Of a stretch of 64,000 bases of DNA, positions 14,297 to 16,368 are shown piece by piece. Every line of letters starts with the position of its first letter. The first letter of the stretch is position 1. This DNA comes from Diphasiastrum complanatum (lineage: Eukaryota > Streptophyta > Lycopodiopsida > Lycopodiales > Lycopodiaceae). The translations under genes and the position numbers were made by a program. The DNA lies in the NCBI GenBank assembly GCA_029204225.1, contig MU832134.1, positions 1 through 64,000 of the forward strand, read 5' to 3'. The notes under the pieces are model-generated. The model searched no databases. It saw nothing but the letters and a program-made list of their open reading frames with translations, and had not been told where the DNA came from.

Positions 14297-16368
14297 ATGG
14301 CTTGGACGAAGCAAACCGCTAGGCTTACAAGTTTCGTTCAACCGTCCCATCCCCAGACATATGAGCCAGTACGTCCCCAAAGACGCGGTAGACCTAGCCA
14401 TCCATGGTTGAGGGACATCAGGGCCGTGCAGAGGAGCACCAAACCTCTGATCCCGAAAGCAGCCTTCTACCGGGCTGTGAGAGAGGTTACACAAGACATG
14501 ACCACCCATCTGCCATAGAGAGAGAGAGAGAGAGAGAGAGAGAGAGAGAGAGAGAGAGAGAGAGAGAGAGAGAGAGAGAGAGAGAGAGAGAGAGAGAGAG
14601 AGAGAGAGAGAGAGAGAGAGAGAGAGAGAGAGAGAGAGAGAGAGAGAGAGAGAGAGAGAGAGAGAGAGAGAGAGAGAGAGAGAGAGAGAGAGAGAGAAAG
14701 CTTTATTAATGTCTTTTCCATGCCAAAAGTGTAGTGAGGTGGAATATTACTACATTGGAGGCCCTCCATACTGCATACGAGGATTTCTAGACAAAATTGT
14801 TTGAGGATTCAATGTTGTGCTCCATTCATGGCAAGAGGGTGACACTGATGCCCAAGGACATGCTTCTTGTCATGAGGCTTCGAAACACCTATGACAACAT
14901 TTTTAAGTTTGGATTCACACAGAGGAAAGTTCCTCTTGAAAGGGAGTCTGTCCCACCCCGCAAAAAGAGAAAGCAAGCACAGCCCAAGCGTTCGCAACCC
15001 AAGCCTAGGTCTCCCAGCTCTTCACCCTCACCTCCTCCCATTAGAAAAGATCTGGCTAGTACGTCCACAATTCCACTGGTTGAGAGTCCTCCTGTAACCT
15101 CTAATCTTCAGCCGCACGATTCTCCTTCTATACATGAGGATGACCTAAATACAGTGCTAGACATGATTGTTTCTCATGTTGATGCAACTGATACAGAGTT
15201 GCACATCAGACTTCCGAATGAACCTAAAGACACATTTTTTGAGTTTGAGAGGTACATTGTGTTTGACCTGTATATAGCCAAGAAAATAGATGATCTCGGA
15301 GGGGAGTTTATGTTTTGTATAGACGATATTAATTTTGCAATGCATATCAAAGACCTGCATTGTAGGGAGCGAAAAGAGAAGACCTCATATATCTTAGACA
15401 CAGTAGTTGAATCTGCTTGTGCATACTATGTGCATAAATATACATATACAGTCACAAAGGAGATTTTTGTTGTATCTCCATTTTTTGGGCATCTGTTGAA
15501 TAAAGAGAGGAAATCCAGAAGGCTCTTCAGGCACACCAGCAAAGAGGCATCAATGTTCATCATTGCATACTGTTCAAAGTAAGATAGTTTCTTCTTGTAA
15601 TATCTGTTTTCTGTAAGATTTTTCTTTTGGAAACTCTTATAGATTCTAGTAATTCATTGCTTGTCTCTTTCTGGCAGCAAACATTGGAGTGTGCACGTCA
15701 TATCCATGAAAGTGGATTCGACTGGAAGCTGCACACATGTGTGCATGACAATGAATTCTTTGCATGCCACCCATTCCATGATTAAATCCATGTACAAAAG
15801 GATGGTGGAGCTATTGCCCAGGCCGGATGGGTTGGTTGTAAATACCAACATAGAGGTTGTTGATGCAAAGGTAGAAAGAGTCTTTTTACGTATTTTATTT
15901 GCATGATGGCATGTAGTTTAGAATTATATTGAATTATAATTTAACATTTTTTCGTTGTGATTTCTCAGTCTTCGCAACAAGATGATGCTTTCAGCTGCGG
16001 ATGGTATTCAATCTGGAATGTTAAATCGTTCTTGGATTGGTACATGGTGCAACCTCTTGATGCTAGTATCCGTGAGGTATTTTTTTCAATGTTCCAGTAT
16101 CCTGATGACATATTGTTAACTTTGTGAATTTATATATTTTAAAACATTGGCTAATACATACCACACTCGATTTTTTTTTTTGCAGTTCCAATGTCCTGAG
16201 GTATTAACAAATTCGATTCATCAGTATCGGCATGAAATGTCAAAAATTTTACTATCATGTGCAAGGCCCTACAAGCATGAAGGTGCCTCGGATGAACCTG
16301 CTAGGGGATCCGTGGATGAGGTTACGGTGCTCGAGGATATGCCTCAAGCACCTTTGATTGAAATGTAA
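14297..16368 (+). pseudogene. gene C, copy 1: histone H3 domain fused to a Ulp1-like cysteine protease
   Basis: The start at 14297 encodes MAWTKQTARLTSF, an H3 tail with Thr3-Lys4-Gln5-Thr6-Ala7-Arg8. Then comes the H3 helix alphaN/alpha1 region (WLRDIRAVQRSTKPLIPK, RAVREVTQDM) to 14500. A 181 bp (AG)n tract interrupts the gene. H3 resumes at about 14733 with TLEALHTAYEDF, one stop, then LFEDSMLCSIHGKRVTLMPK. A basic, proline-rich linker (PPRKKRKQAQPK, a likely nuclear signal) leads to a C48/Ulp1-like domain in four exons: to 15578, 15678-15870, 15969-16076 and 16196-16368. NKHWSVHVISM supplies the His, the position of the usual Asp reads MNSLH, and QDDAFSCGWYSIW supplies Gln and Cys (about 15978-15998). 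GT-AG introns restore frame. Ulp1 enzymes cut SUMO or related modifiers. The stop and the AG tract suggest this copy is inactive. Confidence 0.85.
14517..14697. repeat. (AG)n microsatellite, 181 bp, inside the H3 domain of gene C
   Basis: About 90 uninterrupted AG units. It lies exactly where the H3 fold should pass from alpha1 to alpha2 (between RAVREVTQDM and TLEALHTAYEDF); copy 2 has no such tract and is continuous there. The long Arg-Glu and Ser-Leu open frames on either strand are artefacts of the repeat. Confidence 0.97.

Follow-up and report, generated by a model that had tools for sequence, protein, structure and literature searches.

Does a gene near the start of this stretch of Diphasiastrum complanatum DNA really join histone H3 to a Ulp1-like protease inside a mobile element and, if so, what could such a protein do for the element that carries it? 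We analysed the whole stretch of 64,000 nucleotides (the window), which holds two copies of the gene, and searched the source genome (1.745 Gb in 5176 contigs) for relatives.

A gene joining histone H3 to a protease

Our data demonstrate that a transposon gene in the window consists of histone H3 fused to a C48/Ulp1-type cysteine protease (Table 1). The initial annotation had described a recognisable H3 tail and fold, and PF00125 matches in both window copies agree with that description. In copy 1, the piece 14297-14515 at the start of the gene gives one match (E=2e-7), the end of the domain lies in 14791-15582 (E=9e-8), and a PDB search with the joined H3 part finds H3.3 (E=5.9e-21). Splicing three GT..AG introns out of the protease exons gives an open frame that contains the HW and Q..CG motifs and stops at 16368. 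As the sole query, this protease part reaches PF02902 with E=0.0019 and 18.5 bits, below the cutoff of 20.7, and PF02902 is not among the Pfam matches of the 423-aa copy-1 query. Copy 1 belongs to a family with many copies in the same genome and is itself decayed: it is broken by an in-frame TAG at 14788 and, in the H3 fold, by a (GA)n-bearing stretch of approximate bounds, at which L016-like copies read without interruption. In copy 2, the segment 41488-41817 matches PF00125 (E=2.1e-9) and the protease can be traced only as far as the exon that follows the HW motif, its end being no longer recognisable. The HW exon itself is retained and, judged by eye, the first protease intron has the same place and phase as in copy 1. 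Over 125 codons, the H3 parts encoded by the two window copies share 49% protein identity; the structure that AlphaFold predicted for the H3 part of copy 2 (pLDDT 48) was too poor for use.

Table 1. Coordinates of the two transposon copies and their genes in the window
Feature	Position	Strand	Basis or remark
Transposon copy 1	8709..17636	+	left TIR starts CATTACATGAGTTCCAAGGCCCAAAAGGGC at 8709; right end missing
Transposase gene, copy 1	9397..12095	+	tblastn to copy 2; frameshift near start, internal stops
Accessory gene X, copy 1 (homologous part)	12627..13313	-	tblastn; kept in copy 2 at 40206-40688
H3-Ulp1 fusion gene, copy 1	14297..16368	+	Pfam, PDB match, exon joining, copy alignment
H3 part, copy 1 (then linker, then protease part)	14297-14512 + 14731-14910	+
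(GA)n-bearing stretch splitting H3 fold, copy 1	14513..14730	+
Later exons, copy 1	15678-15870, 15969-16076, 16186-16368	+
Accessory gene Y, last exon, copy 1	17439..17615	-	59% identical over 58 codons to copy 2, 42858-43034
Transposase remains, copy 2	38104..40197	+	tblastn
Gene X, copy 2	40206..40838 (homology 40206-40688)	-	tblastn
H3-Ulp1 gene, copy 2	41272..42700	+	starts MRTKQTAQ; TAG at 41485
Gene Y, copy 2	42849..43427	-

Both window copies belong to abundant subfamilies. For subfamily 1, at least 158 matches to the copy-1 protein were obtained (95 scored of 12,774 first-look candidates), a lower bound in which exons are counted separately and duplicates included. For subfamily 2, a 151-aa query of the copy-2 H3 part, protease excluded, was matched by all 150 candidates that were scored out of 10,680 from the first look, again a lower bound. 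Near-identical duplicates are included among the matches, which therefore count places and not independent insertions. Each of the 30 subfamily-1 loci that we extracted (L001-L030) reads from residue 1 or 2 to residue 355 or 356 in one stretch made up of H3, linker and pre-protease region, most with at least one stop. These loci, four longer extracts and window copy 1 form an alignment of 35 copies, one of which, L016, is fully open, with 515 codons, standard exon lengths and three GT..AG introns; L014 is free of stops but has lost 15 nt within the H3 fold. The H3 of L016 matches PF00125 with E=2.9e-24 (86.1 bits, cutoff 26.4). Its protease part as the sole query matches PF02902 with E=4e-6 (27.2 bits, cutoff 20.7), the basis on which we class the protease as a putative C48/Ulp1-type cysteine protease; PF02902 is not listed at E<=1 for the whole 515-aa protein. 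The initial reading of a C48 domain is upheld by profile for the open relative, above the cutoff, and falls short for window copy 1 (18.5 against 20.7). Its central proposal, H3 and protease in one gene, is borne out by the 30 loci and L016, and the alternative of two separate genes, which had been named as a refuting outcome, is rejected on the same loci.

The catalytic columns of the 35 copies, with the triad aligned by eye, hold His in 34 and Cys in 24, and Gln stands at each of two candidate positions (also by eye) in 28/35. Where the usual C48 triad has Asp, 32 of the 35 have Asn (MNSL), in the same alignment by eye, and a search of the PDB with the protease profile found no relative. In L069, a subfamily-2 copy, the H3 part appears by eye to be in frame with a Copia-like polyprotein piece that follows it; this piece is an insertion and no fusion. 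A protein search with the fusion query returned only P0001 (407 aa with an H3 domain) and P0002 (835 aa, H3 near the C-terminus), with no C48 in their Pfam lists and no family besides H3 above the Pfam cutoff. They are possibly other unusual H3 fusions.

The element around the gene

The gene lies inside a mobile element, as the initial annotation had supposed: the element is a multicopy DNA transposon with short imperfect TIRs and the order transposase (+), X (-), H3-Ulp1 (+), Y (-). The left end, CATTAGAGGAGTTCCAAGGCCCAAAAGGGC, is common to its copies and recurs inverted at the right, with an imperfect match of about 40 nt. The H3-Ulp1 gene and transposase exons lie between both termini in C12b (8,452 nt end to end, in the order transposase, X, H3-Ulp1, partial Y) and in C17a (6,814 nt, lacking both X and the final transposase exon). 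The left border of copy 1 is common to C12b, C9a, C3a, C17a and L051, and its homology to other copies ends at 17636, just before a 141-nt piece at 17643-17783. That piece forms an inverted repeat with 3170-3310 (141 nt, 91% alike, with a TATAAAAGG box), and the right one truncates copy 1; the two are perhaps LTR or promoter fragments. This repeat (3170/17783) is ruled out as the TIR of the element, whose left end is at 8709 and whose homology ends at 17636.

Other features of the window concern its surroundings. Gypsy-type gag-pol remains (4182-8592) lie directly left of copy 1, their last long ORF ending by eye about 100 nt before 8709, and a minus-strand ORF at 27748-28434 that by eye resembles a PAQR/HHP-type seven-helix receptor is probably a host gene. 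For window copy 2 no terminal repeats were found, the four matches obtained being at chance level. Direct repeats of 252 nt at 43764-44015 and 48685-48936, 94% alike and separated by about 4.9 kb, are likely LTRs of an insertion adjoining copy 2. At G000:C2:60631641-60641929, 97-99% matches to both window copies lie about 9 kb apart on opposite strands, in contrast to the window copies themselves, which are 27 kb apart on one strand. We read this arrangement as a rearranged haplotype or an assembly difference.

The transposase has 44 relatives (best E 3.2e-110), one named relative being from the streptophyte alga Klebsormidium. A model of the relative P0003 predicts a RAG1/Transib fold, and no other named fold stood out for it. 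Pfam gave no transposase family for the four window transposase pieces (E<=1) or for three of the 44 relatives (E<=10), and a profile scan of viral contigs and genome contigs with the transposase alignment gave no match. Genes X and Y are conserved between copies, run convergent to the transposase and to H3-Ulp1, and have no match reaching the Pfam cutoff; minus-strand ORFs adjoining X may belong to it. The MULE or CACTA context that had been suggested for the gene found no support: the predicted transposase fold is RAG1/Transib, the termini are CATTAGAGGAGTT, and no target-site duplication is visible. CACTA/EnSpm elements have termini that start with CACTA and a 3-bp target-site duplication, which the termini found here, CATTAGAGG, do not match. 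A MULE transposase or VANC domain had no Pfam match in the transposase, X and Y pieces tried, a result short of exclusion, and the best fold was RAG1. Transib elements make a 5-bp target-site duplication. In a small sample, made up of the flanks of C12b and C17a and a filled/empty pair (in C23a an approximately 310-nt relative that shares these ends, and the empty site in C23b), no target-site duplication was found.

Histone tail, histone core and signs of selection

Met followed by ARTKQTAR is the column-majority N-terminus in both subfamilies, the octapeptide being identical to residues 1-8 of H3. In subfamily 1 (n=35), the N-terminal columns are M 35, A 34, R 26, T 30, K 35, Q 33, T 31, A 29, R 34 and L 34. 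The departures at R2 and T3 are mostly of CpG type (CGG to TGG or CAG; ACG to ATG or ACA), and K4, present in all 35 copies, varies only silently, with 28 AAG and 7 AAA codons. Position 9 is Leu in 34/35 and Val in 1/35, and a lysine there occurs in none of the N-termini counted in either subfamily. K4 is likewise present in all 12 subfamily-2 N-termini fetched, 11 of which were picked by a KQT motif filter; the twelfth, L078, was missed by the filter and reads MTRTKQIARG. The columns of the 11 are A 8/V 3, R 8/Q 3, T 11, K 11, Q 11, T 11, A 8/T 3, R 9/W 1/Q 1 and then G 6/V 3/I 2, so that the complete ARTKQTAR occurs in only 2/11 although it is the column majority. L069 begins MARTKQTTRG. In most subfamily-2 N-termini GG-x-P comes next, like H3 residues 12-16.

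Beyond residue 4, and independently of any alignment, 28/35 subfamily-1 copies have no lysine in the tail before the fold, and the other 7/35 have one, which replaces the Glu 22 of the others. Mapping L016, L010 and L069 onto H3.1, in an alignment that is uncertain past residue 8, indicates that K9, K14, K18, K23, K27, K36, K37 and K79 are absent and that K4, K64, K115 and K122 are retained, so the modifiable K9, K27 and K36 of H3 are missing from these three mapped copies. Loss of the tail lysines could be plain drift. The core histone fold by which we recognise H3 (PF00125) is, at the level of sequence, present. The core was compared with an H3.1 reference sequence at a list of contact positions. 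On that basis L016 matches at 8/10 checked basic positions (K53 and R63 being changed), at T118 and at 5/6 H3-H3' positions; L069 matches at 7/10 basic positions, R49 being counted as changed to K, and at 3/6 H3-H3' positions.

Selection was assessed in 28 deduplicated copies of the 35 by counting single-step differences from the majority codon. Replacing and silent differences numbered 414/147 among those seen once, 96/45 among those seen twice and 74/64 among those in at least three copies, and N/S therefore stands at 1.16 for variants in at least three copies against 2.82 for singletons (Fisher p=7e-6). The drop is from 3.15 to 1.03 in the protease part (p=2e-4); in the H3 part alone it is from 2.00 to 1.32 and not significant (p=0.29). 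Between the two window copies, the 125 H3 codons differ at codon positions 1, 2 and 3 by 0.43, 0.24 and 0.54. The lower N/S of shared variants and the codon-position differences fit purifying selection during the spread of the element.

What the fusion protein might do

In plants, transposon silencing works through H3K9 methylation that is coupled to DNA methylation. Our preferred reading, close to an even prospect and held tentatively, is that an H3 that cannot be methylated at K9 or K27, joined to a putative deSUMOylase, works against this silencing. Removal of the first Met would expose ARTKQTAR, and the largely intact H3 fold might pair with H4 and so let the protein enter, or compete at, nucleosomes on the element. 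The tail could then be read or methylated at K4 and, being without K9 and in most copies without other tail lysines, would offer the H3K9me2/DNA-methylation and Polycomb routes nothing to modify. The tethered protease might remove SUMO from nearby silencing factors, the net outcome being an element that is locally de-silenced. We infer H4 pairing, chromatin entry, SUMO cleavage and anti-silencing alike. The kept K4 and absent K9, together with a deSUMOylase-type enzyme, suggest action against H3K9me2-linked silencing, and the Vandal precedent makes an anti-silencing role plausible by analogy for a Ulp1-bearing accessory gene, since KIU elements, with their Ulp1-bearing VANC, are described in a review as causing hypomethylation of their kin (PMC13317346). 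According to the same review, however, what the Ulp1 domain does in KIU elements is unknown (PMC13317346), which counts against this explanation, as do the Asn in place of the C48 Asp, the non-significant N/S drop in the H3 part (p=0.29), the tail lysine in 7/35 copies, the fewer core positions retained in L069 and the lack of a PDB relative for the protease profile. A broader proposal, that a selfish element keeps itself active with its own K4-only H3 and SUMO protease, whether these act in nucleosomes or are read by RAG1-like machinery, seems to us possible, if doubtful.

Three other explanations deserve weighing. The RAG2 PHD finger reads H3K4me3 for RAG1, and by analogy the tail might be a decoy or docking peptide that never enters nucleosomes, ARTKQTAR titrating or recruiting host H3K4 readers and writers or docking on a reader that partners the transposase. 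The RAG1-like transposase speaks for this, as does the fact that in both subfamilies the column majority equals H3 throughout residues 1-8 and departs from it at K9. A peptide ligand would need no H3 fold, yet the fold is kept (PF00125 86 bits in L016), core contacts are kept in the three mapped copies, the H3 part is matched in all 150 scored subfamily-2 places, and no Pfam reader domain was found in X or Y; we regard such a role as unlikely. The kept K4 and lost K9 of both subfamilies would be left unexplained if H3 merely brought the protease or transpososome to chromatin and the protease targeted the transposase or host repair proteins and not silencing. This tethering role is quite unlikely in our judgement, even with Ulp1 domains occurring in several transposon groups, where one paper suggests a role in transposition (PMC2836005). 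That a captured H3 became linked to a protease by chance and then multiplied without serving any function is distinctly improbable; this idea draws on the decay of most copies (1/35 aligned is fully open) and on the mostly broken H3 copies reported from fungal hAT elements (PMC6710886). Against it stand the surplus of silent changes, relative to replacing ones, among shared variants, the H3 part kept in two diverged subfamilies and the first protease intron at the same place and phase, by eye, in both window copies.

If the anti-silencing reading is true, an H3 without K9 that carries a deSUMOylase would attack the H3K9/DNA-methylation loop directly, and the element would offer a natural K4-only tail for testing which marks silencing needs. 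Such an H3 would then be, as far as we know, the first chromatin component that is made by a transposon and selected for anti-silencing. The analysis also places a transposase family with a predicted RAG1/Transib fold in a plant genome and, by one relative, in Klebsormidium. From Transib the Diphasiastrum element differs in its terminal repeats and in having no visible target-site duplication; the searches made gave no match to a named sequence family.

Ulp1 domains in transposons and transposon-borne H3 in fungi are already known. The H3-Ulp1 fusion was not found in the literature searched, which gave partial coverage, nor in the fusion-query protein search. In Ginger1 elements with Ulp1 or OTU domains, a DNA transposon likewise carries a Ulp1 protease domain, which sits C-terminal on an integrase-like transposase; the word histone is absent from the available text of the paper (PMC2836005). 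KIU/VANC of Vandal, a non-TIR MULE of Arabidopsis, has a similar Ulp1-type domain in the accessory gene of a plant DNA transposon and is linked to escape from silencing, according to the review, in whose main text the word histone does not occur (PMC13317346). KIU/VANC is a MULE, whereas the Diphasiastrum element has a predicted RAG1/Transib fold, TIRs, and an H3 fold and tail. The hAT elements of Dothideomycete fungi have captured histone H3, so that there too H3 coding sequence has been multiplied by a TIR DNA transposon, with 784 H3-like copies in Pseudocercospora fijiensis; the main text, as available, does not contain the term Ulp1 (PMC6710886). Those fungal copies are mostly truncated, inactivated host H3 (PMC6710886), whereas the Diphasiastrum element carries a diverged H3 joined to a protease, with signs of selection.
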